A stretch of 64,000 nt of DNA from Clavelina lepadiformis (lineage: Eukaryota; Chordata; Ascidiacea; Aplousobranchia; Clavelinidae). Of this stretch, positions 3,097 to 53,000 are shown piece after piece. Every line of letters begins with the position of its first letter. The first letter of the stretch is position 1. The position numbers and the translations under genes are program-made. The notes beneath the pieces are model-generated. The model did no database searches and had not been told where the DNA came from. It saw only the letters and a list, made by a program, of their open reading frames with translations. Location: the NCBI RefSeq assembly GCF_947623445.1, contig NC_135240.1, positions 4,216,001 to 4,280,000 of the forward strand, given 5' to 3'.

Positions 3097-3172
3097 TGTG
3101 ATTAATGTGCAATACAAATAGATAAATTCGCACTTTTCTCGAATCACTTATAAAAACATGATTTCAATTACG

Positions 3173-3254
3173 ATTTGTCGGTAGGATTCGAACCTACGCG
3201 GGCAAGGACCGACAGATTTCATGTCTGTCGCCTTAACCACTCGACCACGACAAT
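3173..3254 (-). tRNA. tRNA-Ser-like unit 6, anticodon TGA
   Basis: Best T arm of the array (GTAGG TTCGAAT CCTAC pairs perfectly), and the anticodon stem ACAGA/TCTGT is intact. The loop CATGAAA has A in place of the near-invariant U33 before TGA, and the outermost acceptor pair is A:A. This may be the closest to the ancestral tRNA-Ser(TGA). Confidence 0.55.
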
Positions 3255-3294
3255 TTTGCTTAATGAGCAATGCAAATAGACAAAACCTATTGTC

Positions 3295-3918
3295 TAGTCG
3301 AGCGTAGTCGAGCGTAGTCGAGCGTAGTAGAGCGTAGTAGAGCGTAGTAGAGCGTAGTAGAGCGTAGTAGAGCGTAGTCGAGCGTAGTCGAGCGTAGTCG
3401 AGCGTAGTCGAGCGTAGTCGAGCGTAGTCGAGCGTAGTCGAGCGTAGTGGAGCGTAGTCGAGCGTAGTCGAGCGTAGTCGAGCGTAGTCGAGCGTAGTCG
3501 AGCGTAGTCGAGCGTAGTCGAGCGTAGTCGAGCGTAGTCGAGCGTAGTCGAGCGTAGTCGAGCGTAGTCGAGCGTAGTCGAGCGTAGTCGAGCGTAGTCG
3601 AGCGTAGTCGAGCGTAGTCGAGCGTAGTCGAGCGTAGTCGAGCGTAGTAGAGCGTAGTAGAGCGTAGTAGAGCGTAGTAGAGCGTAGTAGAGCGTAGTAG
3701 AGCGTAGTAGAGCGTAGTAGAGCGTAGTAGAGCGTAGTAGAGCGTAGTAGAGCGTTGTAGAGCGTAGTAGAGCGTAGTAGAGCGTAGTAGAGCGTAGTCG
3801 ATCGTGCTTGAGCGTAGTCTAGCGAAGTGGAGCGTAGTCTAGCGTAGTCTAGCGTAGTAGAGCGTAGTAGAGCGTAGTCGAGCGTAATAGAGCGTTGTTA
3901 AGCGTAGTCTAGCGTGGT
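3295..3918. repeat. 10-bp minisatellite, copy A
   Basis: About 62 head-to-tail units of TAGTCGAGCG or TAGTAGAGCG. The two variants occur in blocks (TCG, TAG, a long TCG block, a long TAG block), with degenerate units at the right edge. Confidence 0.97.
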
Positions 3919-7926: not shown

Positions 7927-9410
7927 GCTTACCACGGTCATCCAAGATGGGACAAAAAGAGCCAAGCAGACTTCTAGTCTCTCGTCACAACCACTCGGCC
8001 ACGACAACTGTGCTTAATGTTCAATGCAAATAGATAAAATTGCACTTTTTTCGAATCACTTATGGAAGCGTGATTTTAATTCCACGTTGTCGGCGGGATT
8101 CGAACCTACAACGGCAAGGCCCAACAGATTCAAAGTCTGTCGCCTTAACCACTCGGCCATGACAACTGTGCTTATTGTTCAATGCAATTAGATAAAATCG
8201 CACTTTCCGCAAATCACTTATGGAAGCATGATTTTAATTCCCCGTTGTCGGCAGTATTCGAACATACGCGGGCAGAGCCCAACAGATTTCGAATCTGTCG
8301 CCTTAACCACTCGGCCACGACAACTGTGCTTAATGTGCAATGCAAATAGATAAAATCGCACTTTTCTCGAATCACTTATGAAAACATGATTTCAATTCCG
8401 CATTGTCGGCAAGATTCAAACATACGCGGGCAGAGACCAACAGATTTGTAGTCTGTCGTCTTAACCACTCGGCCACGACAACTGTGCTTAAGGGCTCAAT
8501 TCCCAATATAAAGACAATTTTGAGCCGGCACACAGTGATTATTACGTGTTCGTACTCAATGCGTCATATTAAAAAAAGTAAGAAATTTTCCGGTCCAATG
8601 CGCATGTGACGTCGATGTGAGCTAGTTTTGTTGTTGTTTTGGCGACAGCTGGTTCCAGGTTTAGGCTAAATTGTACATTTTTTGAGGGTTTGATTTTTCG
8701 GTTTTTAGGAGTATTTGTGCTAAATTTTTAAGTTCAAAACTTGCTGTAAAGTTTAGGTAGCTGTTATAGAAAACTGAGTACATGGATTTTGTCCAAATTA
8801 AGACTGCAGACAGTCCTGACCTAGATGTCGTTGCAAGCCAAAATTCAGTGTAGGTTTATGATGTGAATTTGCGACAGTAGCGTCTTGATTTAATGTACTT
8901 TGCATTGAAAAGCCTATCTCTTTCAAATGGGAATTGACCCCTTAATGTTCAATGCAAATAGATAAAATCGCACTTTCGCAAATCACTTATGGAAGCGTGA
9001 ATTTAATTCCACATTGTCGTCGAGATTCGAACCTACGCCGGCAAGGCCCAAAAAAATTTCAAGTCTGTCGCCTTAACCACTCGGCCACGACAAATGTGCT
9101 TAATGTTCAATGCAATTAGATAAAATCGAACTTTCTGCGAATCACTTATGGAAGACTGATTTCAATTCCGCGTTGTCGGCAGGATTCGAACATACGCGGG
9201 CAGAGCCCAACAGATTTGTAGTCTGTCGCCTTAACGACTCGGCCAAGACAACTGTGATTAATGTGCAATACAAATAGATAAATTCGCACTTTTCTCGAAT
9301 CACTTATAAAAACATGATTTCAATTACGATTTGTCGGTAGGATTCGAACCTACGCGGGCAAGGACCGACAGATTTCATGTCTGTCGCCTTAACCACTCGA
9401 CCACGACAAT
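7927..9410 (-). repeat. tRNA-Ser-like tandem array, copy B
   Basis: Base-for-base copy of the array in copy A, shifted by 6156. Units: decayed 7927-8008, then 8085-8166 (TTG), 8243-8324 (CGA), 8401-8482 (ACA), 9012-9094 (TGA, broken stem), 9171-9252 (ACA), 9329-9410 (TGA). Confidence 0.85.
8492..8941. mobile_element. piggyBac-like MITE, copy B
   Basis: Same insertion as at 2336-2785, with the same TTAA flanks. It was carried along by the 6.2-kb duplication and is not an independent insertion. Confidence 0.85.
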
Positions 9411-9450
9411 TTTGCTTAATGAGCAATGCAAATAGACAAAACCTATTGTC

Positions 9451-10124
9451 TAGTCGAGCGTAGTCGAGCGTAGTCGAGCGTAGTCGAGCGTAGTAGAGCG
9501 TAGTAGAGCGTAGTAGAGCGTAGTAGAGCGTAGTAGAGCGTAGTCGAGCGTAGTCGAGCGTAGTCGAGCGTAGTCGAGCGTAGTCGAGCGTAGTCGAGCG
9601 TAGTGGAGCGTAGTCGAGCGTAGTCGAGCGTAGTCGAGCGTAGTCGAGCGTAGTCGAGCGTAGTCGAGCGTAGTCGAGCGTAGTCGAGCGTAGTCGAGCG
9701 TAGTCGAGCGTAGTCGAGCGTAGTCGAGCGTAGTCGAGCGTAGTCGAGCGTAGTCGAGCGTAGTCGAGCGTAGTCGAGCGTAGTCGAGCGTAGTCGAGCG
9801 TAGTCGAGCGTAGTCGAGCGTAGTCGAGCGTAGTCGAGCGTAGTAGAGCGTAGTAGAGCGTAGTAGAGCGTAGTAGAGCGTAGTAGAGCGTAGTAGAGCG
9901 TAGTAGAGCGTAGTAGAGCGTAGTAGAGCGTAGTAGAGCGTTGTAGAGCGTAGTAGAGCGTTGTAGAGCGTAGTAGAGCGTAGTAGAGCGTAGTAGAGCG
10001 TAGTCGATCGTGCTTGAGCGTAGTCTAGCGAAGTGGAGCGTAGTCTAGCGTAGTCTAGCGTAGTAGAGCGTAGTAGAGCGTAGTCGAGCGTAATAGAGCG
10101 TTGTTAAGCGTAGTCTAGCGTGGT
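9451..10124. repeat. 10-bp minisatellite, copy B
   Basis: About 67 units of the same 10-bp repeat, five units longer than copy A. It is the only clear length difference between the two full copies. Confidence 0.97.
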
Positions 10125-18130: not shown

Positions 18131-18720
18131 CCATAGAAAAGGACAAGTCCATTTGGAGCACTGGATCCACCCATCATTCTCGGATGATTTGGAATACATT
18201 TCGTTGCAGTAAAAGCATTCTGCATCTACGTTGTTATCACTTTCATCGACTGTGTCCTTCTGCTGCATTGATGACCTGGAAACCTTAGCTTTCTTCATAG
18301 AACACTTTTTTGATAAACTTGTTTTACTCCTGTTGCCAGATACCGCGGATCGGCTACGATTCGTTGCAGCCAACTGCTTCTTGTATGGTGAACTGGTTAA
18401 AATAGCAGTTGCACCTCTTAGACTTCCTCTTTTGGCGAGTGTGAGCTGCTTTCGGCATAGGAAGCACTTCAACAGGACTTATAATTGTGAAACTGGAATT
18501 TTCATCTTCAGGAGAGGACGGTTGGGAGACATCTATTGGCTGTGCAGGTAACGATTCAGGTATCTCGGGAAGACCAACCGCATCTAAGCCAATATTTTTG
18601 CCATCACAATCAATGCTAGTTGAACTAATATTAACGGAGTAAGTATCGGTGTTGGTTGGAACAGGATCAGGATCAGGATCAGGATCATAGGTCCACTTTA
18701 CCCCCACCCCTCAGTTACTA
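18131..18720 (-). pseudogene. pogo/Tigger-like transposase C-terminal remnant
   Basis: The minus strand encodes features known from the C-terminal tails of Tigger/pogo-type DDE transposases: a VEVLPMPKA segment followed by basic residues, an ILTSSPYKKQL segment, and a PHD-like CFYCNEMY...WIQC motif. The first lies in one frame (18707-18430) and the others in another (18472-18131), so there is a frameshift near 18440-18470. No DDE catalytic part is present. At the 5' edge (about 18684-18715) sits a GGGGTAAAGTGGACC motif also found at 21388, which may be the element's terminal repeat. It directly abuts the satellite block. Confidence 0.6.
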
Positions 18721-22150: not shown

Positions 22151-25100
22151 TTATGACGAATCACGTGGTCCGCTCCCATTCACCATAGCGGACGTGACGT
22201 CAGTAGCAGCGTTTTGAGCGTTGATTTTCTCGAGGAAGGTTGGATCGACCAATGAGAGCTTGGCAGCGAGGAAGGCGTGGACACAGAAGAGGAGGGGGTA
22301 GGCCCGCTGACAGTGGAAGCTCTGCAACAAACAGAGATATATGGGATGATGATGCGGGTAGGTGATAAACCGGATGAGCTACCTGCTTGTCTATCAGATC
22401 GCTCTCCCTGTTGTGGAAGGAGAAGGTGATGAGAGAATGTCCGTCGTCCGACGATGCTTTCAACTGAGAGAACTTGTACGCCCACAGGACCACCTGCAAT
22501 ATAACCAGTTACTTCTAACTCAATAACGTCGTCGTGACGTCACTGTGACGTACCTGTGTCGCAACTTCGACCAGTTTGAATCCACTGTTGAAGTGGACGA
22601 CGAAAGTGCACGGTTTGTCTTCGAAACTGCATTCGTAGCTCTGGCTCTATGACATCACAAAACAATTAAATTTTACCGTTGAAAAATAAGTATGGCGCTT
22701 GGTGATAAACCACTCGGTAATGAACGAAAATTATCGCCAATTTCAATGTTACAACACAATACGTGTTTCACGAAAACATCATAATTGCGATTATCGACGT
22801 GTATGCGGTTAAAGCTTCCGACCTCCCTCTATTGCGTCATAATTGCTACCCTCAAGTTCAATGTAATGTTGGCCTATATGCGACGCGGGCACAGAAGCAC
22901 GATTCCTGGCCAAGTTCGGACTCTGTTTAAACTATTGCGCATGCGTGGGTTCCATGACAACTACCACGTGCCACGATGACGCAGATCATGTCTTGAATGC
23001 TGAGTCAATGAAGGTCAGAGTTCATCAACAAGAACCAAGCCATGAACTCTGTGCCAGCTGACGTCAAAACATGAAAGTTGTCTATTGCTGCAAGCTTTTT
23101 AATAAAGCGACGATTATTATGAGTTCGAAATTCCGCCGAATCACTTACATCGAAGCTATAGTACAAATTTACGAGAGCTCATACATACGTCACAAACTTT
23201 GAAGATCGACAAAAAACATCGCAAAATCGCGACAGTGTCAATTTATGCGTTTGACGTCATAATTATAAAAAGGCGCTGGAAGGGAAACAGGTCAGGCAAG
23301 TAGAAGTTAGTAGCCTGGGGCGGGGTGTACAGCACAACGCTTCCTCAAATCGCTCGAATTTATGAAGAAAACACACGAAGCACTCGAGGCCTTGATCGAT
23401 TCAGCTACAAGACAGTTTATTCAGATTAAGACTAAGAACGAGGCTTCACGACAAACCCCAGAAAAACAAAAAGAATAGGTTTTGTCGCAACAGTTCATGT
23501 CAACATGACGTAATGGTGACGCATAAGTGAGCTCAGTAAGAAAATTCAGAAAATTGGATGTCTGTTGTGTGCCTTTTTGCTGCCTTTATTCAGTAAAACT
23601 TCTCATTGTTAGCAAAGTATTGCACCAGTAAATTCATAATTAAAATCCGGGTTGAAAGGTAAACAGGAATGCAGGCACTGGCTCTGGTATTCATCGTCAT
23701 AGCGAGCACGGCGGGTCAAAGCACCACAAAGAATCCTCAAGGTTTCTGCGCAAGCTACCTCAACCGTTACACCAACGACAACCAATGCATATACAGGTAA
23801 ATATGACGTCACAATAACAATCATTGCACCTTCTGGAGAATACTACATCATATTTTTAAAGCTTTATCGTCCCGAAGAAAGACCGGGACCACTGTCCTGG
23901 ATTGGAGGCAAAGCTCAACATCCTGGAAGACACAATCAATGGTCAGTGCAAATGTCCGTCCTATTTGCTCACTCTAAACTCTATGACGTCATAGAAGTTT
24001 TTATTACGTCAGAAATGAAGCTAAGACAGAGCACGGCGGAGGAGCAGATCCGGCTGTTGACCAGAAGTGAGCAAAACAGCCGAGATCTAGGAGCAGCGCA
24101 GGAGCAGGCGCGGATCCTCCGGGATCAAAACAACGCATTGGAGGCAGACAAGCAGCGACTCCTCCAAGAGAAAACTGATCTTCAAAGCAGGTAGGTACGT
24201 CACAGTAGAGTATACGTCACACACTTAGTTACAGGACACGTTTGTATCGGCAGGTTGAACGAGAACCATCTAGTGCTGACAGAGGACAAGAACCAGCTTG
24301 ATGAAGTTCGGGCAAAGTACGCTGCACTTCAGAGCAACTACTCCAGGATGCAGGAGAGCTACACTTCGAACAGGCAGAGCTTGAACTCCCTCCAGGAGAA
24401 GTTTGATCGGACCAAATCGGACCTCATCGAGATGCAGGTATACTCGTCATGGTTGGGTAATTATTGAATGGTTGCTATGGAGACTGTGTTACACAGAAAG
24501 CCAAGAACTGTTCGGACATAAACAAGCATCTGCCTTCATGCGCGGTCATACGTCAGTGGGGTTATACGGAGTCGGGGTACGCGATGATCGACCCAGACGG
24601 TGAGGGGGGCGTGGACCCATTCCTCGTCTATTGCGACATGGAAGATGGCAGCGGGGTGACTGTGATTGAGCACGACATACAGGTGGGAACTTCCATAATA
24701 TGATTTCTATTGCAAGAGAGCAACAAGCAGAAGAAACATGTTAATTGTGCTGTTGAACCCCGATCTCATGGTTGAGCGCGGATCAAACCTGGTTGCATGC
24801 GCTGGTGTCGGATGCACGTTGTCATTTCAGAATATTTAAGAAATTCTTCTTTCAGGAGAAAATGCACGTGACAGGGTGTGAGGGGCCGGGCTGCTTCACC
24901 TTCTCAGTCAATTACGAAGCGAGTCTGGAACAAATCACGAAGCTGATGGACATATCTCTCGCCTGTGAACAGTTCATCAGATACGACTGCTATGATTCAA
25001 AACTATTAAAAGACGGTGAGACTGTGGCGCTCCATGCGGAGTTGGCGGGTTGTTTGTAATATGATGTCTGTGTTACAGATACGGCATGGTGGAATTCAAG

Positions 25101-28100
25101 GAGGGGCGAACCCCAGCGTTACTGGGGAGGGGCTCAGCCAGGGAGTGGAAAATGCGCGTGTGGAATGACCAATGAATGCTTGGTTCCCACGGAAGCGTGC
25201 AACTGCGACGCCGACAGTGAGGAGTGGCTCTTCGATGAAGGTTCGCCCAAATGCGTGACACATGAGCTGAAGCAGATTGTAACAGAAATTTCTTTCAGGC
25301 TTCTTGCGAGATATGAGTTCTCTCCCCGTGACAGGATTGGCGATAGGAGATGTCCGGGACAGTGCTGGAGAAAAAGGCAACATCACATTGGGTTCTCTCA
25401 GATGCAAGTGGAACGTGAACATGTCTGTGCCTTCGTGCGATGCGCTTCGACAGTCCGGGCTCACTGGAACTGGTTTATACCTGATTGATCCTGATGGAAG
25501 TGGACCAGCTGAACCAATGAGAACACATTGCGACCTTCGTCTGACCAATCAAACCACAGTAACGTCACCTGGGAGTTCCCCTAACACAGTTCAGAGGCCG
25601 GCGAATCCGAACGAGTACCATTTTACAGATTGCAATCAAGTCCCTGGTCCTGACGGTCCAACTGAGAGAATGTGCAATGACACCTACCTCAGCTCCAACG
25701 TCAGGGTGAGGGTACGTCAGGGAACGCAGGTATGGCAAGTGCCCCGAAATGGATACTACAGGATCACTGCTAAAGCCCCATCTGGGTACCATAATAACCC
25801 TGACCGTGCAGGAAAAGGGGCAACGGTCTACGCCGAGTTCAAGTTCAGGAGGGGGACTGAATTAAGGGTAAGTGAGTGCAGGTGGAGATTGACAACCAGG
25901 TGTAAGTTGCAATTTGTAATTTTCTTCCCAGGTCCTGGTTGGTCAGCGCGGGGATCGAAATGGAGGATCTGGAGGGACGTTTGTGACTGAGGTTTTCAAC
26001 ACCTACGAGCAGAGGGTGCTGGTAATAGCCGGAGCTGGTGGGAGCAGCCTGGAGTTGCTAGGCAACCCTCCGGTGAGCATAAGACTGCCTCTCAACAAGA
26101 CACAGAGCCCAGTTTGTAAAGTTAATGTTGTCGCAGATTGTTGATGCTTCAATGAACGAGAGAGCAAAGGATTCATCGGACCCAGGGACCAACTACGGGC
26201 ACGGTGGCAACAGCGGGAATGGGGGAGAGAGAGGAGTTGCCGTGCAAGGACCCAATACTTCGGGTAAGCCCCACAAATTGATCAGTTACGGAGCAAATAC
26301 ATACCGGTGTGATATGTGCAGGTGGTGGGGCCGGGTACAACACAAATGGGTTCCCTTCCACCGACCAGAGATTCAGCCCCCGTCCAACGCCAGCTATAAT
26401 GATCCGGGGCCTTGAAGAAGGCAAGGTGCACGGAAGAGGGGGAACTTACACCTACCGCACACCAACAACCCAATCAACATACTCTGGAGGGTTTGGAGGA
26501 GGAGGTTCAGGGTCCAAATCTGCCCCGGGAGGTTCCGGGGGTTACTCTGGTGGAGGGGGAGGTCCTAATGGAGGATCGTCAGGAGGCGGAGGAAGCAAAG
26601 TGGTGGAAAAGGGAAAGAAACGTCACATCCTCATCAACAATATCGGGAAAGGAAGCGTCACCGTCACTTACGTAAGAGAAGCGTCAGACTTCGCTGATTC
26701 ATTATAAATTGCTCATTAAAGCAACCTCACAGCGTCACCTGACGGACAATATCAAAGAAGTGAAGTGGCGCCATCAAGTTGTAAACTTTTGAGCGGTAAC
26801 GAGCATATTTCTGTTTTCATCGTTGCACTGTAATGTGCTTTTTAATAAAAGAAAAAAAGCGCCAATTTTAGTTTAAGCTTTTTCTTGATTTCTCTGTTCA
26901 GAAATAAACAAAGAGCGCAACATTATTGAAATTAAGCTGCAATCAACAATTAGGCTGCATACCAAATCATTATGACGTCACAAGTACACAGGAAGGCTGA
27001 CGTCATAAAGAGAGTATACAAGTTATCGTGCAAAGCGTTATAATTAGGTCACCTGCGCAGCGTAGACGGCGCTGTGCGTAGCTTTTTGGACGCTCTCCTC
27101 CCAACGTAGTAAGTCGGCTAAAATCAGAAAACAAACAATTAATGGAATGCTTGCGGCCAATAGGAAGTAATGAAGTGCAATTGTGACCTCATAGACCAAC
27201 CTTTGCTTTGCAAGCTGCAGTAGACGGGCGGGCTGGTGCTGTATTGCACGCTGAAGCAATGCTCGCGTTGATCGAGCAACTGCCGCGGTGGAACGTGTAC
27301 GCGGCACAAAGACTCGTGCATTTTGTACACCCTCCCACATTCCTGCCATTCAGCATCGCGTTCCTTTGTTACATCATAAAGTAGTATGAAATAAGCGTAA
27401 AACACAGCAAACGAGCATAAAGTTAAAGTTAGTCCACATTTTCGGTCAAATTGCTTGAGCGTTGAGCGACTCGCAATTGTTTGCTGACGTCGATGAGAGT
27501 AATAGGGGAAGTGACGTAGTTACCGGCGGATCAAAGCAAAAGCTTTTATTGCGCTGCGTCGTTCCATTTAATTTAAATTCATGTCGGCGCCTCAACAACC
27601 GCCTTGGCCCGTACCTGAGCAACGAGCGGGTTGGTGGAACTAATTCTGTGGGAAAATCAACTTCAGGTTTTTCACACAAATATGATATATTTGCGCTTAC
27701 ACACATGTCAATGCGATGATTTATAAACGACTTTCACGGCCGATGCGTTCAAACCAGGATGTCGGCTCACCAAGTGCTCAAGTGAAGTGAACAAAACCAC
27801 GTAAGTTATTGAAACGTAATATGACGGAACAACTTGACAGCTTACTGACGTCATAAAGTACACAGATGGAAAATTCTCACCGGTGGTCGTTCAAAGACGT
27901 AGAGTTTACCGCCTCTGAGCGCGATGAACCTGGAGTACCACGTCTGGACGGATGAAGCGGGCATCGCGTATCGCTCCGAGACCCAGCCCATGTAGGTGAT
28001 GTGGGGCTGTTTCTGCTCGTTGATCTGCTCCATCTGGGGATAGCGTAAAGATTCTTATCATCCGAGCATTTGCTCGAATCCACGTCACTAGATAAGAACA

Positions 28101-31100
28101 AAATCAAACAATGGGTTGAAGCGCACCTTCTTCATGGTCGCCTTGTTGATGGCGGCAGAAATGGCTGAAACCCAGTCGTTGGCCTGGTCGCTGTTTTCGC
28201 AAAGAATCACGCCAGTTGACGCTTTGTTTTGCCCGATCACTTCAAAGCAATTTTGTCTACAAACCAACAGCCAAGATTATTGTGGATTGTTCGCTGATTA
28301 AAAAATTTAAATTGCCTCTACCTCCTCTTATCAGTGCCTGGATGGTAGATCTCGATCCTCGCAAATAGAAGGGGAATTTTTGTCTCCTTCTCCATCGAAG
28401 GGATCATTGAATTGTCAAGCTGTGTGCTCTCGTCAAGTTGAGCTGTTGTGACGCTTCCTGCATGGGCATCTTGGCCCTTACTAGATGCTGTGCTTTCAGT
28501 GCTATTTACATTGTTTGTTTGCGGAAGTGGCTGGTCGGGATGCTGGGATGTTTCACTGGGAGCTGAAAAATATGAACACGGCTTCACTTACGTATTAACT
28601 GCCGGGGAAAAATTAAATCATAGAGTTAAAAGAAAATGCAATTCAGGGACGAGTTTTTCCGCAAATTAGCCGATTACAAACTGGCGAGAAATCTGCACTA
28701 CAACACATCAAGAATCAACAAAGAGAACACTAATTTCATCTCAAGAGGATTGCAAGTTTATGATTTAACCTTGAAAATATTTTGCGAATTTAAGCAAAAG
28801 TAGCCCAAAATGAACATTCAGACACCAGTGCAAGAGCTGGTATCTCCACACACAACTGTTAAAGTGCAAAACAATATATTAGAGTGTCCAGAATTCAAAA
28901 GTGATTGAACTGCTCTGCTAGTTTCACGTGAAATGATCTGTTAAAATATGCGAAGTACTCACTCACTTGCTGTAGACGCAGAGGCTGCTGGTCTAAGCAC
29001 GTGACTTGCCCCGTCGAATGTGCAGACAGTGAGGGCAACTTGTGGACCACACGACCGCAGTTCACCAACCACGTCATCGTGCATCATATGTTCCACTTTC
29101 TTGTTATTCACAGCCAGGATTGCATCTCCCGGATGGAGCAAGTGGGTCTGGTCCGCTGCAACCACATCTCATATAAAGCATGTCAGAGCGACATAAGATC
29201 GGTGGCGTGCAATTTTATATTCGTACGAAAGTGTGAGAAAGTGCATTTGGAAGCACTTTCACCCTTACATATGGAAACAACACGTGGCTTTTTGAAATAA
29301 TAGCGATGCAAAATTGAAGTTATTGAAGTTACTGAAACTGACCTTTGGTCCATTCATCGACAGAGAGCTAACAATGGCAGCACCTTTTGTTTGCATAATG
29401 CTGGTTAATATTAACTTTCCTTATCAGGTGACATGGAACGTGGTTACACGGGTAATGTTCTACTTAAGAATGTGCAAAATGAAATAATTTGTTGTTCGGG
29501 AATAATTTTATTTTAAATCCTTATTTTAGAAATAGTGTTGAACCGATGATAATAATTAAACTGGTTTTTCACAAATATCAGGTATAAGAGGTTCTTCCTG
29601 GAAATTTTTGCTATTATTATTTCTCCATTTTCTTGGCCAGAAATGATTAATTTGGGCATTTTTTGTGAATTCCACTGAATTACTCATTAGAGTAAATTAA
29701 AAAAAAACTAAAGATTTAAGGATTTCACACAGATTCTACATTTCTTTAACTTTGCCAGCTCGCTTGCTGCCAGGTGCTGCTTCACTTTGCTTGCAATGTA
29801 TCAATTATTTTCACACTCATTGCAGTAGCGGTTTTGCTAACGTTATATTGCGTGTTTATACTTTCCACGTTTGAGCACGTTAGTTTTAAAGTATAGTTTG
29901 AGGTCCAAGGTCGCAGATTGCTGAGCATAACCCATTAGTCTTTATCTCCAAATTTCATATGCTTATAAAAATATGGAGTCAAATTGTGTATTTCCATCTG
30001 CTATTTTATGTGCATCTCGTATACAACTAATGTGTTTGAAAATCATTTAAGCACAATCAGCAAGAAAGCATTATTGCGAGCATGACAGGTTACGAAAAGT
30101 GGCAGATACTGACCTGTTATAGTGGGTTTTCATATGAAGCAGCACATTAAAAATGACATTTTAATAGACATGGTGAGTCGGCAGTGTGGATATTTGTCAA
30201 AATATTAAAAGTTACCGGCTTGTCCAGGGAAGACTCTTGAAATGAGGACGGGAATGCCGTGTTCAGCTCCACCCTTCACACTTATGCCGAGTCCGCCACC
30301 GGGCTGCCTCTTGATGGTCACCACTCTCTCTCCGCTGCGACTGTCATCAGCGGGCTGCAAACATTTCACCGCGATCACGTCAAAACTGGGATAAATTTGT
30401 GCCATGCAACCGCACTGCTTTGAGCATTATTCCAATGATTGGATCTATTTTACTTCCATATACAATTAACCCTGGCATGAGCTACTTTCCTAACTCAACT
30501 AATTTCATCTGATTCTTAGTAAAATATTAGTTTTGCACACAATGGACTCAGCAACTTGACAATTAGTGGCGATATGGCAGCTGACAGCCAATGCCAACTC
30601 GCGACAAGAAGAAATCGGGTTAGTTCCCATCTCCAACATAGAATGCTACACATTGACCACAAATGATAAATAAAAGACACATACCATGCTGGATAGTGAG
30701 TTTGAGCCCTTGGTGCTTTGTTTCTGGGATCCTGTTTGTGAGCTTTCAGTTGATGAGAGGGATGCAGTTGCCTATTTCAAGACAATAACCAGTTTATTTT
30801 CAGCACACCATAAAGAATTTTTTAGTTCCCTAACCTAATTAAGTACAAAGCAGCAAAAGGTTTCAAAGCCAAGTTCCTCTCGACATAAAACATAAAATCA
30901 ATTAATCTAATTGCTTCCCAGGCAATCCACGATGACAATTTCTGAAAACTTACATACATCGACATCTTATAACTGACATTCAAACTTGGACAACTATTCT
31001 AATTGCTGAATAACATAAACCAGACATTACACATATCCCATGCAATATTACAGGCACAAACTAAGGAATTAAAGTTTTACCGGCAAACAAATAGTCCTAC

Positions 31101-44019: not shown

Positions 44020-47000
44020 TTATCTAAAACTTTGGTGTGAAGGATTCGTCCTTCCAGGAAAATAAGGGAAGTTGTCTTGGCGATAATTTGGCCGAAATTG
44101 GGGTCTGTTCGGGCCGAAGTTGGGATACACGTTTCGCGGTAGGGGATCGGAAAAAGGGGCACGATCAGCCTGAGTCGGAAATGGGTATCGCCGGGTTGAA
44201 TTGAAATACGCCCCGGGGTGTCGCGGTGGCATAGCAGAAGTGCTGGGGATTTGAGCTCCAACCCTGCAAAAAAATCGTTCAATGAATTTCCTGCGAGGCC
44301 AGAGCACATTTTTTACCACTATGACGTCATTATCAGAAAGTCATCAAATCTCACACTGGGGGGGCGGGGGCTCTCCTCTGGCACAGTCGAAGTTGTTTCA
44401 ACTTGTGCTCCAGGTATCTGCCAAAACAACCTCTTATGTCATCAATGATCTCAGTGACGTGCACTGTTCCGTCACCCAAATCACCTTTTCGTTTCCTGCA
44501 ACTGTCGCCGCGCCATCGCCCGCCTCATCTGGACTCGCGACGCCTGCTCCAACATCTCATCCAGTTTCATATCACGCTGGGCCACTTTCAGACGAAGCAT
44601 CACCCGACACAACGGCTCCTCCTACGTCATTAAGAAAACGATGGTGACAAAGAATATTTCATGAGAAGCAACAGCAGTGCCAGGGAGGGAGCAGGCAACT
44701 TAAATTGCTTTGGTTTCCATAAACTTCAGGCCAGTTCGGCGCCTGTGTGTGGGCCCACACGCCGGATAACTCGAAAATTTCTCAAATTGATTGATTACAA
44801 AATAAACAAGAAGTGATTCTGAAATCACAATAGAGCAATTTAAACGAGCTCGCCATGAGACAGGTAACTATTGTCACGCCACAAAGGATATTGTTACGTC
44901 ACTTTGTTTTCAACAAGCCCCTCGGTGGCGCAAAAACATTTTTCTGACGCGGCCTCAGTTAAAATACTCACGTCGCATTTGCTGAGAAATTCTTGATTTT
45001 TCTTCAGTTCAGCTTGGACGAGCGAGATGAGCTCGTTTATTGCCGCCAACCTGGAAATAAAAAAAGAAAAATCAAACAGATTCCGGCAACTTTGGATGCC
45101 GGCATCAATCATCAACTCACGGAAGCTTCAACATCTCATCGCCTTCCTTCACAACTGGGTTGTGCTCACGAGCATATTCATCCCACGCTAGTTTTCGTTC
45201 AGCTTCAGTGAGTTCCTCATCGACTTTGTGATCGAGAAGAGTGTCGTGTTCGTGATATGAAACAATGATATCACGTGTGCGAGGTTGCTAAATATCACGA
45301 AAATATCATCATATTCATAACAAAGACCAGAGGAGCAGACTGATAGCGTCACCTACCATTAAAAGCTTGGCCAAAACTTGATCCCGGGGTGGCGCACTTT
45401 TTAGGTTTTCATCTACTTTCTTATCGGCTGGTTCTGGCTTGAACGTGTAAAGATCTGCGATGTCACTGGCTGTGAAGTGGCGCTCGATCTGTTGCTGGTC
45501 AACGACACGAAACGCCAGTGACTGCTTCACCACCTTCATAGACATCAAACAATTACATAGGACCCATGTTCACGCCTGAATGAATCCGGTACCTGGCGGT
45601 CGTATATCTTCTCTTCCATGGTTCCGTGAGCAATCAAGCGATATACGAAGCAAGGTTTGTCCTGCCCGAAGCGGTAGATTCGGAATATTGACTGAATATC
45701 GTGGGTTGGGTTCCATGATGCGTCGAATATGACAGCCCTAAAGTGGAATATTTTGTCATCGCATCACTCCGCATTGACCAAGGACGAGGAACGAACCTGT
45801 TCGCCCCGACCAGGTTGATCCCGATACCACCAGCCTTTGTTGAAACCAGGTAGAGTCTGGCGCTCGTGTTCCTCGGGTCGTTGAACGAATTTATGTTCTC
45901 TTTCCGTTTGTCTGTCTTGGTTTGGCCATCCAGTCGAAAGTAGTTCACATTCTTCGACCTGAACATCATGAATAAGATCATATGATGTACGACAACAAGA
46001 TAGATCATATGATCTAGTAGGAGAAAATAAAAGATCCTATGACATAGAATCACCAGCGCTGGTGTTTCATGTCACGTGATCCAGTGGAGAGCCTTGATTC
46101 GTCGTAGAGAACTTCTTCGACAAAGTCGAGAGTGAGAAGAGACTGCGAGAAGACGACAACCTTGTCACCGAGCTCGTACGCGTTGGCGAGAATGTCGAGC
46201 AGGAGAGAGACCTTTGCACTGTGGTCGATGGCTTTGGTGAGGTTGTCCTGGGCTGGGAGGACCGCTTCGAACCAACAGCTGTCATCACCCGCATCTAGAT
46301 GGAAGGAGATTCAAACAATGAAGAAACCGAAGCCCCCTCGTGCACATACTTGCTTGGCTCTGGTTGGATAATTTTTGGTATGTTTCGACGAGATCTTGCT
46401 TGTCGGTGCAGCCCCAACAGGACCCTCCCCTCTCAGATATCATCTTCTTCAAATCCTTCATCAGCAAAGATAACTTAAACAAACAGCAACTGATGGACAC
46501 TACGCTCATCCATAAGTCTCACCTGCACTGATTTCTCATGAAGATTAGCCACGCTCCCCTCATCCGATTCCTCATTCTCTTCTTCATTATCATCCACAAT
46601 AAAGCTTCTAAGATCATCTTGAATATTCTAATCGTGACAACATCAAACATGTCATTATGACGTCACTATCACCACACAAAGATATAATTGCGTGGCCTGA
46701 CCTCAGCACTTGTCTTATTGTCGTGACGAAGTTTGGCCAACTGGAGCACACGGGGGTGCGATGTAACATGGAGGAGGTTGATAAAGTCCTGGAAGAGACA
46801 TCCCTTTCGACTCGACAAGTCGTTGCACTTGTGGGCCACCAGGTAGGTCTCGTACAGACGAACCTGGACATAAACGACATGTGGGCTTGAACCGATGATG
46901 TCATCACAATCAAGCAAACCTGCAGAGGGGAGAGTCGAACAAACACGACGTATTCGTGCTTGGGTTGGAGGTGTCTGGCGAGACAGCTGACATCTTTCCG

Positions 47001-50000
47001 CTGCACGCAGCCAGACAACAACTCGTGCAGGACGTGGGATCTCTTCTTCATCACGTCCACGTCGTGCCTGGTCGAGTCAACGTGCTGCCCGTTCAAGATC
47101 GGGTTCACAAATCGATTGCTGAATTCCTGGAAGAAATTAGAATTTTTATCTGAACACACTAAAACGTTACAAGTAATAATTGGATATCTTAGCATTAAAC
47201 TTTTCAACAAGCGACCTATTACTCACTGCCTTGCTTCCAAGCAGTCTCGGCTTGACGAAGCTCACCATGCAGTGATATTCCTTCAAATTGTTTTGAAGGG
47301 GAGTCCCCGTGAGAACGATGCGACGGCGTGTTTTAATCTTACTGGTCAACATGGAAAGATCGGTCTTGTCGTTCTGAGCAAGTTTCAAAAATAAGATCAC
47401 GGAAAAAATTTTGTAGAAAATAAGCAGCAAACCTTTATCATGTGTCCCTCATCGCAGACCACGATGTCCGGGCCTGGATCCTGCAAAGTCTGGAGGAGAA
47501 TCTCCCGATGCTTCTCGTCCATCTTATTCTTCCCCCGGCAGAGGAGCTGGTACTTGCGGTATCCGATGATCATAACTCCGCCTCGATTACGCCATCTCTG
47601 AAAATATCACCTTGTCATGTCGCTTTTTGCAAAGTGGCGCCACGCGACGTCACAATGAATCCGAGACTCACCCTCAGCAAGCTCAACCTGTCATGGTCAT
47701 TCTTCACTTGAAGCAAGTCGTCAAATTTTATCCTCTTGTCGCACTTGCAAGTCCAGTGCTTGAACTCATGTGACCAGTTGGACACCGTTCCAAGTGGACA
47801 GATCACCAGCGCAGTTCGAAGAGTCGGCAAATGGTCACAATTTAAAATTGTGTGCAAGAAAGTCACAACCTGGGCGAGTCAAAGAAATGAGTCCTGCACA
47901 AAACAGACGAGTCAAGTTTCCACTCTACCTGAAGGGTTTTCCCCAGCCCCATGCAGTGCGCCAAGATGCAGCCGTCCCCCTTCTCCTTGTTGGCTCTCGG
48001 GATGCTCTCTATCACATTCCTCCACATGAACTTGACTCCGTCGAATTGATGATCTTTTAAAACTTGCACCAGTTCCGGATCAACCTGAACAACAACAGTT
48101 TGGTGATGATCAAATCCGAACTTCTTAGAATTTGTCAGGATGAGTCCAAACGTCAACAAATAACCTCAACTAGGGGGTGTTTGGAAAGGATGAAGCGAGT
48201 CGTGAAAGGTTTCTTCACTGGGGAAGAGTCATCATCGATGACTATAACCTAAACAAACATTCCAAATTTAACCTCTATTATGCATGACATCATAATGAAA
48301 TCATTACCTCCTCATTGTCAAGACTCTCTTCAATTCTTTTCCTTCTCTCACGCTCTTTCATTTCGGCAAGTTGTGTGTCCTGACTCAACTTACCATCCTC
48401 AAGGATCTTCCGGATGTTGCGCCTCCCAATCTTCCCCATGCTTTGACGATCAGCTTCAAGAGGAGAGAACTTAAGAATTTAGAATTGACAAAGCGGACAA
48501 GGAATTCATGCATACCTGGTGACTGTGAGAGCTTGGGCAATTCATCATCGGATGACACCAACCTCAGCGATTTCGACCTCTTTTGCGACCACAACGACTT
48601 CAGCTTCATAATTTAGAATAAAGACGTCATCAACAAAAGAATTATTTCTTATTCTTGGACTTACAGAGAACTCGGCTTCACTCGACTCATCATCGTGGAG
48701 TTCCTCTTTGATTGCCACGAAATCAGCTGGAGGATGTGAACCACATTCTCCTTCTTCCTCATCCACATCAACAGATTTCTCATCAGGACCATCCTGGACA
48801 CAATAACATTTAATTATGACATCATAACCACTATTAATTAAAAATGTGTAAAAATATCAGATTTGTGTCGCATCACTGGAGGTAAATAGTAACCACACCT
48901 TTGTATCTTCAGCGTCTTTGTCTGAGAGAAGAATATCTTCATCTCCATCAGATATTTTGCTCTCATCCAATCCAGTATCCTCATCCTTTCCATTCAATAA
49001 GAGAGCGTCCTCATCAGAAAGGTTTGGATCTGCGAGTGCTTCATCAAAGTTCAGCTCTTTCTTCACTCTCTGTCAATGCAAGACGTCAGATTATTATCCA
49101 TCACTGATGAGCAGACATCATCAGGCACCTTTGCTGGGAGCTCCTTGCTCTCTTCTTCGGAGGTTTTACGCTTATCGCACTTCTTCATCTTGCTGTCACT
49201 CTCACAATCGGACAAACTCAACCGAATCTAAACAACAGAGAGAATTCAAGCAAAGTCCGACACAAGGTTCATTGGGGGTCATACATTGAGAAGACGATTT
49301 TTGTATTTTGAATTGTTTAGGATTTCTTCGTCGGATTTCGCACTTCCTTTTGTCTTCTTCTCCACCAGGTGGGGTGGGAGACAATCTTCATCTGCAGAAG
49401 ACAAATAATTTCAGCAAAATGAGACATCCGCAACATCCCATGATAACTTACCATCATCCCTGGAGGAATCTTCTGACTCTTCTTCCATTATCATCTGTTG
49501 ATTCTCGAGATTTTTCAGAGCAATCCTGTTTATCTCTTCCTCTCTGGTGACATCTTCAGGTGACGATTCAGAGCCACAAGACATGTGGAAAGAACCTCTC
49601 ATGATCTAAAGGTACAAGAGCTTGAAACGAGAAAACAAGAATCTTCGCCATTGTTCACAGAGCAGTGTAGAAGGTTAATCAAAACAAAACGACTTCGCGC
49701 TGCCTCGTGAATCATCATCATCTACCTCTGAAGGGATCTTCTGGTCTTCAGAAACAGATGAAACATCGGATGCATCTGAGGAACTTTTCCCTGATGCCGT
49801 TCCATCCTGCTTCAACTTACTCGCATCTTCCTCTCCATCACCTACCACAGGCCGGGGGTTCACTGAAGAGTTTTCGCTTTCCGAGATGGTGGCGCTATCA
49901 ACAGGAGGAAGAAATTTTCCGCATTCGTCGTCATCGAAAATGTCACTCTCGCTTGCAGCAGCCTGCAACATCACCAACACATTTGCACCAACTCTTATTT

Positions 50001-53000
50001 GGCACAAAAAAATAAGGAAATTACATTTCTTGTCTCTTTCATGTTTTTGGAGCTGTCCGTATCATTGTTGATAACATTCGAGTTGAGAATCTGCTCAACA
50101 GGTTCAGTTTTTTCATCAGAATCATCTGAAATCTTAACAAATGAGGATTTTCAAGTCAACAATTGTAACCAAATAATAACACCAGCATCTGAATGGCCGC
50201 ACCTGTCTGAAGCTCTTGAAAAGTTTCTGGAACGGATCAGGAGAAGAGACACTTCTCAGCCGCCTAGCAGACAAAACTGGAATGAAACACTGATGACAAC
50301 CTGACTACGACATCATAATACATACTCTCTGTCTCGTCTTTTCCTCAAAAGTTTTCGTTTCGAAGGGCTTGACAGAATTTCTTCATCAGAATCATCATAG
50401 TCCGATTCTTTCCCAGTCGTCGTTTCATTATCAGGCGAATCTGGTTGAATTTTAGATGAGTTCACTTCAAGTTAGCCATAGACACATTACACTCACCTGT
50501 ACATGTGGGGGCAACTTTCACTTCTTTTCGTTCTTCTTCGATTAACCTAAGAAACTGTGATGCGGTTGCCATGACGCCCTTCATGTGAGTTTGAACCTCC
50601 TTGATCGTCCGAAGCTTCATGTAGCGGACGGCGGCCTTCTTCTCTGCAACGTCCTACACCAGAGCTTGTTGCAAGGTTAATTGGAAAACTTTGCTCAGTT
50701 GGACAGAGCTGAGTGGATACCTTGGCAGGATGATGGAAGTCGGCTTCAAACTGGGAAGTGAGAGAGCTCAAGTCAGATTTGATATCCTGCAACTTCCGGA
50801 GACAATCACTCCTCCATACTTGCAAGGGATGGGCGGATGCTTTAAAGATAAAAAAGTAATCAAGCCTGTTACTCAAGAAAGATATTTTGTCGATGCTTAC
50901 ATGAAGCGGGCGACGTGCCACATGACCTCAGCTCATGTTGTGAAATCGAAGTCGATCCTGGTTTGATGACAACCTTGCTACCATCTGAACAACATCAGTG
51001 CAGTGAGTTTCAACTTGAGGGAGATAAAATAATAACTTACCCAAGATGTTGTCGCCGGCCCCGATGCTTGAACCTACTCGTTGCACGGTCGCCTGCTGCA
51101 AGGAACAAATGCAGGTTCGTTGCAAACCCACAGGATGAAAATTTTGAGTGAACTTAAAATAACTTTGCATGAATGTTTTGCAAAATACCATTTTCCAGGC
51201 AATCTTTGCATTTAATAAACAGCACAAAGCTCCTTCCAACTCACCCTTCGTGGTTTATTAGAAGATTTTTTATTCATTTCATACTCAGCGATAGCATCAG
51301 AGAGCAACTTGCACTTGCTCCTTATTTCTTTGATGGGGGTCGGATCACAAACAAAGCACGTCCAATCATCAGCGGCAAGAATCTTGTTGCTCTCAGATCG
51401 AGTAAGATTGCGGCGAACACAAGCTCTGGAAAGAATCAGAAAAGTTGCCCTCAAAGCATTAATATTAAATGCAGCGGAATGAAAGAAGAAACCTGCAGAA
51501 TGCATTGGTGCAATGATCACAGAGTAGCAAGCTGCCGCCATCACCGCACCACCGGCAGTACTCATCGATGTCGTCAGCGTCCTTCGTGAAATCTCCCGAG
51601 TTGTAATAATCGTAGCAAGACTAAAAACATAAAACTGTTGTGTGATGTCACAGAAATAGGGGTCATACTTTCACTATATACATAACAAAATCGCTTTCTA
51701 ATCACCTTTTTGGTAACCAGGTTTTAAAAATAAGCCATCACTATTAATAAAACAGCAAAATGGGCCTTAAACAACCAGAATATATTCAGTAGCTTCGTGC
51801 TGCTGTCAGGGTAGTAACTGTGATTAGAAAACCACAAAAGTAACATCGCTGTGCGATGGGACCCAACTATCGACCAAATCATGTCATATCATATCATCAT
51901 CATGTTATCATATCATCTTCATTCATATCATATCAAGTGAAGTCGTACCGAGTTAAACTTAGACACTTAACATTGATTTGATTAATTGATAGGAACATTG
52001 TCTGAAATGACAAGGCATGGATTGGTAGCAAACAGGCAACTGAAATATCCGACATGATGTGATAATGAAAAAGATAGGGAGACAGATAACTACAGTGAAC
52101 AGTGAGAATATGCCATTGTAGCAGGTTAGCATACTTGTCAAGTAGAGCACGTTCATGCATTTAACGCAGTGAACAACAGGTGTGCACTGACAGAAGTGAA
52201 GCACCAAATTGGAAAAATACCATGTCTGCGAGAAATTTACAATAAACTTCAAGGCAACCATTTCAAAAACAGGTAAAAGTCAGCGCTGATATAAATTGTG
52301 TCATCAGATATGCAAGTATGATATATGATGTCAATTGTGTCATCAGATATGCAAGTATGATATATGATGTTGGTGTATATGCTGCACGATAACTAAGTGA
52401 TGTCAGCAAACCAGAATTTATTCAGATTAACACCAACAAGAGTTAAGAGCTTGTTAAGACCTGCATATATCTTGGAATACACTTGGTCATTAAACACTTC
52501 ATGGTTTCCATGGCAATCGCCAAAACCAACTGCATGGATTCATTTGCATTTGAGTCGTTTTGAAGTGACAAATTATCCTGAAATATTCAATTAAATAATC
52601 TGAAAGGAGAAATGTGAAAACCCTTAACTGCTTTTAATGAATGCCCTTGTGCGTCCCAGCTCTCTAAAAATGAGTGCCCTTGGAAAAAGTTGGACGCCTA
52701 ACCCTGGCGAACCAAACTCAATCTGCCGAAAGACACAATCAACAATGCAATTTTTTAAGGTTTAAAATTTTATAAAAGCTCTACTCTTTTTCACCAATGG
52801 TCGGGTCTCAATTGCCAGAGTCATTTCCTCAAAATATATCTCTTGATACAATCTCTTCAGGCTGTGCGAATAGCATAGTCTGGTGTAGATCAAACCTTAA
52901 GTAATGGCATCATCCAGACATCAATCACATGGGCAACCTCATTGTCCAGAGTAGAGCAATCCATAGAAAAACAATGGGTGCCCATTTGGCATCCATTCGC

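Follow-up and report, generated by a model that had tools for sequence, protein, structure and literature searches.

We analysed a window of 64,000 nucleotides from the genome of the ascidian Clavelina lepadiformis (contig NC_135240.1, called C1 here; C1:4216001-4280000), which carries an 11-exon gene lying antisense within an intron of a syntrophin gene. The introns of the nested gene are all of the GT-AG type, and its exons (23669-26707, + strand) join in phase, from ATG to stop codon, into a frame of 766 amino acids, as an earlier note, made by a model from the sequence, had proposed. We take it to be a genuine gene, and its structure is open. The order encoded is a signal-like start, a coiled coil, a fibrinogen-type region, a second, half fibrinogen module and a glycine-rich domain of the ALK/LTK type, followed by the stop codon. 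In the 209.06 Mb of genome searched (95 contigs) the ALK-type domain was found in three genes, namely the window gene and one gene each on contigs C5 and C2, and no kinase was found beside any of them. The genome protein searches go exon by exon, so that domain counts are lower bounds; the C5 and C2 gene models were made by eye.

Gene model and predicted product

Contiguous homologous sequence covers six of the ten exon junctions (after residues 252, 305, 359, 549, 596 and 638). The first three are crossed by fibrinogen-type paralogues and the fourth by human ALK; the last two are crossed by a single exon from the C5 gene (E 1.9e-5), which, being glycine-rich and of low complexity, gives weaker support. 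The junctions after residues 43, 69, 128 and 190, in the N-terminus and coil, have no support beyond phase and splice signals. Within exon 8 alone, the first fibrinogen-type region ends, the second half module follows and the ALK-type domain begins, and the join between the fibrinogen-type and ALK-type parts is therefore independent of splicing.

The protein begins with a hydrophobic, signal-like stretch, from which we infer secretion. Beyond residue 30 no 19-residue window exceeds a hydropathy of 1.0, so there is no transmembrane (TM) segment, and Pfam found no kinase; both absences, and the signal peptide, had been predicted in the earlier note. The coiled coil proposed there was also recovered: in residues 55-192 neither the number of hydrophobic residues at heptad positions a and d nor the 3.5-residue periodicity was reached by any of 2000 shuffled sequences, the best single 28-residue coil window being weaker (equalled by 2.7% of shuffles). 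Among the 20 cysteines of the protein, C27, C40 and C54 precede the coil and C195 and C205 follow shortly after it, an arrangement that would be expected for disulfides linking chains.

The ALK-type domain and its relatives in the genome

In the PDB the protein matched human ALK chains beyond what chance would give (E 5.9e-9). Its last 319 residues gave 11 matches at E<=0.1, nine of them to ALK, LTK or scd-2 (best E 3.1e-9); the remaining two were single-chain variable fragment (scFv) chains, probably owing to their glycine-rich linkers. The likeness to the ALK/LTK domain (PF12810; PDB 7n00, 7nwz, 7nx0) extends from FT-C onwards and includes GGFGGGG and a common cysteine pair. Identity to the C5 domain is 38.0% over 279 columns and to the C2 domain 40.1% over 282 (34-46% among the three), and all three domains end in the same last strand. 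The PDB matches and these alignments uphold the assignment of the C-terminal ~300 residues to the ALK/LTK type, and what the window protein carries appears to be the complete glycine-rich domain. A structure prediction for exon 8 alone, without an alignment, had a predicted local distance difference test (pLDDT) score of 33.9. Unlike the receptors, the window protein lacks EGF, TM and kinase parts, and neither MAM nor LDLa was found by Pfam. For ALK and LTK, PMC10605310 describes an EGF-like module; beside the window domain Pfam detected none, and the stop codon comes soon after the last strand.

In genome searches, a piece of human ALK matched the window gene and C5:14766992; the C5 domain matched itself, the window gene and, weakly, C2:21430062 (E 0.004); a glycine-rich exon of the C2 gene matched all three genes; and a query made from the window gene's own exons matched that gene and two broken fragments, and no other sequence. 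The C5 gene (C5:14763800-14769800) encodes FN3 domains, the ALK-type domain, a TM stretch and possibly an acidic tail. Its four upstream open reading frames (ORFs) that were tried all matched fn3, one above the cut-off. Its domain matched ALK in the PDB at E 2.4e-10, with all nine matches at E<=0.01 being ALK, LTK or scd-2, and reached E 0.12 against the Pfam ALK model, in just one of four domain pieces. The C2 gene (C2:21429780-21431700) has a signal-like start that shares one open frame with the start of its domain, then the ALK/LTK-type domain, a TM stretch and a short tail; in the PDB the domain matched LTK at E 2.9e-12, and all eight matches at E<=0.01 were ALK or LTK. After the domain the C5 gene has a phase-1 intron leading to the hydrophobic stretch LAFYLAIAFVIGVVLTFLCAGCLYG, and in the C2 gene an intron of the same phase leads to IVVYIAMCFVAGIICAVLFVCLAYYIW. 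Inspection by eye of the + strand ORFs over the 8.3 kb downstream of the C2 gene showed no kinase, and no genome match to either half of human ALK's kinase lay near the C5 or C2 gene. The earlier note knew the domain otherwise from ALK/LTK receptors; since three copies were found in the genome without a kinase, it appears not to be confined to them.

Near the end of the last exon of the window gene, 4 bases 5' of the position equivalent to the splice donor of the TM paralogues, stands GTAAGA. This could be vestigial, left from a TM exon since lost, or serve as an alternative donor, or match by chance. We looked for a TM exon of the window gene on the + strand between 26701 and 29000; the one weak stretch, at 28465, lies outside the host intron and was rejected.

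Searches with the human ALK kinase, divided into two query halves, gave 50 and 13 genome matches, some of which we identified. The longest of the best matches (43% and 38% identity; short matches reach 55%) both fall in the gene at C2:1076493-1077341, which is TAM-like: Mer was best in one PDB search, and in another Mer, Axl and Tyro3 came behind a single chain, 9p9u, labelled EGFR. In a protein search C3:19712649 proved Eph-like, with ALK chains far lower, and we take C7:8693725 to be ROS1-like and C6:15257767 PTK7-like. No ALK kinase was recognised among the matches identified, though one with short exons could escape. An ALKAL gene was not found in a genome search with PF15129, which proves little because the control was silent too.

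The fibrinogen-type region

The NCBIfam fibrinogen-like YCD domain NF040941 matched two stretches of the protein (whole-protein E 3.4e-15). In Pfam, COLFI scored above its cut-off (E 1.1e-6) and Fibrinogen_C below (E 0.002); the latter covers just positions 5-48 of 221, its C-terminal part being unmatched. PDB matches were weak, the best (E 0.01) being Fibrinogen-like protein 1. The middle of the protein had been described as CNTNAP-like. Its fibrinogen-type character stands, through YCD and COLFI; the CNTNAP label finds no such support, as no match of the protein in Pfam, the PDB or NCBIfam names CNTNAP. The motifs YWGG, CACG, CNCD, GFL and LPV presumably resemble the fibrinogen-type region of contactin-associated proteins (CNTNAP/Caspr). 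In CNTNAP the fibrinogen-type region is surrounded by discoidin, laminin-G, EGF and TM parts, whereas none of these was found in the window protein by Pfam and hydropathy.

A genome search with the fibrinogen-type region gave 45 matches, five of them in the window gene; the other 40 we grouped into about 17 loci on C4, C5, C7 and C8. Collagen-like Gly-X-Y repeats precede the module in two of the four loci inspected, locus L020 having in addition a signal-like start and a short coil, and L030 the repeats. The window gene shares the YCD module with fibrinogen-related proteins and with this family of related loci, some with a stalk, but differs in its exon borders, in having a coil without collagen repeats and in its ALK-type C-terminus.

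A genome search for REJ, which is polycystin-like, gave 71 matches, grouped by us into 37 clusters (the control showed sub-threshold matches in 2 of 14 prokaryotes). Fibrinogen_C has at least 170 genome matches, of which 32 were compared with the REJ clusters, namely those with the 30 best E-values plus two others, one picked for adjoining a REJ cluster. For 28 of these (27 of the 30 best) a REJ cluster is found 2.4-5.6 kb away, with the match 5' of the cluster and on the other strand, and 27 of the 28 keep most of the domain in one stop-free frame. Six pairs are on C2, five on C3, one on C4, nine on C5 and seven on C9 (Table 1). The pairs resemble a greatly expanded Themis self-sterility system; PMC7018956 reports three s/v-Themis pairs in Ciona.

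Broken copies, host gene and other features of the window

The two fragments matched by the window gene are 87% identical, contain stops and lie about 100 kb apart. An 8-base insertion and several deletions are common to both, so a single broken copy is their most likely source. Only 5 bases separate the fragment at C1:1425528 from the inverted copy of a repeat that is also present at 18150-18512 of the window, which suggests carriage by a mobile element.

Nesting in a syntrophin intron, noted earlier, was supported by Pfam matches of the flanking minus-strand exons. Eight minus-strand pieces were compared: two matched PDZ (one above the cut-off), one PH and two Syntrophin_4th (PH and Syntrophin_4th sub-threshold), two had no match and one matched an unrelated weak family only. 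We take the exon next to the downstream border of the intron to be a syntrophin exon as well.

Between the possible TATA box and the gene there is a short ORF, MKKTHEALEALIDSATRQFIQIKTKNEASRQTPEKQKE (23362-23478, +), possibly an upstream ORF. Scans for bacterial-type promoters and terminators, not applicable here, were at or below chance level. Elsewhere in the window, two similar minus-strand blocks about 6.2 kb apart (3148-3897 and 9304-10103) consist of a long tandem repeat that translates as RSTTLDYARL in several frames; beside them stands a presumably tRNA-like sequence. Minus-strand ORFs at 45000-51700 resemble what we take to be an SNF2/ATRX-type chromatin gene.

Table 1. Features of the nested gene, its host and related loci (window positions unless a contig is named)
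Feature	Position	Strand	Remarks
Exon 1	23669..23796	+	ATG, signal-like stretch MQALALVFIVIASTAGQ (hydropathy), beginning of Cys-containing N-terminus
Exon 2	23862..23941	+	N-terminal cysteine; coiled coil begins
Exon 3	24013..24190	+	Coiled coil
Exon 4	24254..24437	+	Coiled coil
Exon 5	24497..24682	+	First fibrinogen-like YCD module; COLFI/Fibrinogen_C start
Exon 6	24856..25015	+	Fibrinogen-type region; homologues at about 17 other loci of the genome
Exon 7	25079..25240	+	Fibrinogen-type region; weak donor GTTCGC, junction crossed by contiguous paralogue sequence
Exon 8	25299..25867	+	Fibrinogen-type end; second half YCD module about 25424-25546; ALK-type domain from about 25607
Exon 9	25932..26072	+	ALK-type domain
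Exon 10	26137..26263	+	ALK-type domain, glycine-rich part
Exon 11	26322..26707	+	Polyglycine part, last strand GSVTVTYV, stop codon
Possible core promoter TATAAA	23264..23269	+	Consensus match only
Possible polyadenylation signal AATAAA	26844..26849	+	137 bases 3' of stop
GTAAGA within last exon	26672..26677	+	Near position equivalent to TM paralogues' splice donor
Syntrophin intron containing the gene, antisense	22647..27052	-	Splice borders read; 4406 bases
Presumed syntrophin exon downstream of intron (SQSYECSFEDKPCTFVVHFNSGFKLVEVATQ)	22554..22646	-	Splice border read
ORFs with syntrophin C-terminal exons	22154..22508	-	Syntrophin_4th E 1.5e-5 (25.6 bits, cut-off 27) and E 0.16
Upstream syntrophin exons	27053..30426	-	PDZ halves, PH part; further exons down to 27053 by eye
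PH part	28091-28276	-	E 3.1e-4, below cut-off
PDZ half	28962-29168	-	E 8.3e-10, above cut-off
PDZ half	30208-30426	-	E 0.0012, below cut-off
Broken fragments of the window gene	C1:1324623-1325124; C1:1425528-1426031		About 500 bases each, introns included
Fibrinogen_C/REJ pairs	C2:21.85-24.73 Mb, C3:23.08-23.53 Mb, C4:21.86 Mb, C5:22.46-23.84 Mb, C9:12.92-13.27 Mb		

Discussion

The gene probably encodes a secreted, oligomeric, kinase-less protein that serves as a multivalent extracellular binding or matrix protein. The coil, with its flanking cysteines, would link chains together; the fibrinogen-type region would derive from the fibrinogen-type gene family expanded in this genome; and each chain would terminate in a complete ALK/LTK-type glycine-rich domain. 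Chains joined in this way would present several such domains and bind multivalently in matrix, coat or fluid, as a matrix, coat or recognition protein; the domain would then serve for binding or packing, outside any kinase receptor. The open gene structure, the order of the domains, the lack of TM and kinase parts, the nesting and the two further genes with the domain are seen directly, whereas oligomerisation, multivalent binding and the site of action are what we infer. Several results weigh against this interpretation. The Pfam model ALK_LTK_GRD on residues 510-730 is sub-threshold (18.3 bits, cut-off 24.5), and a PF12810 profile search of the genome gave no match, although it is uninformative as its control was silent too. 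Two of the four fibrinogen-type loci inspected (L014 and L016) have no stalk in the stretch examined. The gene differs from both fragments at 12 of 120 intron sites and 19 of 376 coding sites, which points to constraint without being significant (P 0.08), and the coding changes lack a third-position bias (first, second and third codon positions account for 5, 6 and 8).

A decoy role for ALK-type ligands had been suggested in the earlier note. As regards ALK itself this has lost ground and is unlikely, because no ALK kinase was recognised among the matches identified, no ALKAL was found (in a search with a silent control) and the EGF-like module is missing. A broader version is a soluble trap, in which the coil would gather ALK-type domains into a multivalent set that binds, and withholds, a ligand of the C2 and C5 TM paralogues or of a diverged ALK. 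The presence in a single genome of the domain in a secreted-type form and in two TM-type forms speaks for it, as does the fact that the window protein stops just where the C2 and C5 genes splice to a TM exon. The negative ALKAL search (with its silent control), the unrecognised kinase and the lack of an EGF-like module after the domain speak against it, and the identity among the three domains leaves ligand sharing undecided. The acidic residues with which human ALK contacts its ligand seem not to be conserved in the window domain, presumably a further point against it. On balance we regard a trap as improbable, although among the readings left one aimed at whatever the two TM proteins bind holds the greatest interest. 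A wider scenario, which we put forward tentatively, is that the tunicate lost its ALK kinase receptor while the ligand-binding domain persisted in three genes that lack a kinase, two of them for membrane-bound proteins and the third for a secreted, oligomeric one; together these would bind and trap ligands and signal, if at all, without an attached kinase.

Other explanations find less room. In being of fibrinogen type and antisense within a host intron, the window gene resembles the v-Themis genes of Ciona as PMC7018956 and PMC9265791 describe them, and the earlier note was reminded of these. An egg-coat protein for self/nonself recognition of the v-Themis kind is nevertheless very unlikely: the host is syntrophin and not a polycystin-like gene, Fibrinogen_C is only partly covered, the nearest REJ match to the window gene is 3.4 Mb away, and Themis-like pairs stand elsewhere, 28 of the 37 REJ clusters having an opposite-strand Fibrinogen_C match, so that linkage contradicts the likeness. 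A wrong joining of two neighbouring genes, or a mis-splice, could be suspected from the weak exon 7 donor and the four junctions without homology support; given that the two parts meet inside one 569-base open exon and that the other six junctions are covered by homologues, we consider it highly improbable. Finally, the existence of two broken fragments, together with unproven selection on the window copy (P 0.08), might suggest a decaying member of a gene family, which is hard to credit as the window copy is open across all 11 exons and the fragments are not.

A secreted, multivalent binding or matrix protein remains our preferred interpretation. Among the literature matches listed, judged mainly from titles and the beginnings of abstracts, there was no description of this architecture. 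The ligand-binding domain of ALK and LTK has been studied within kinase receptors, in cancer and nervous-system biology. That a relative of the vertebrates has it in a coiled-coil protein of secreted type and in two membrane proteins, with no kinase found, indicates a portable domain. It becomes possible to test which partners other than ALKAL the domain has, and the window gene offers a natural soluble version of it.

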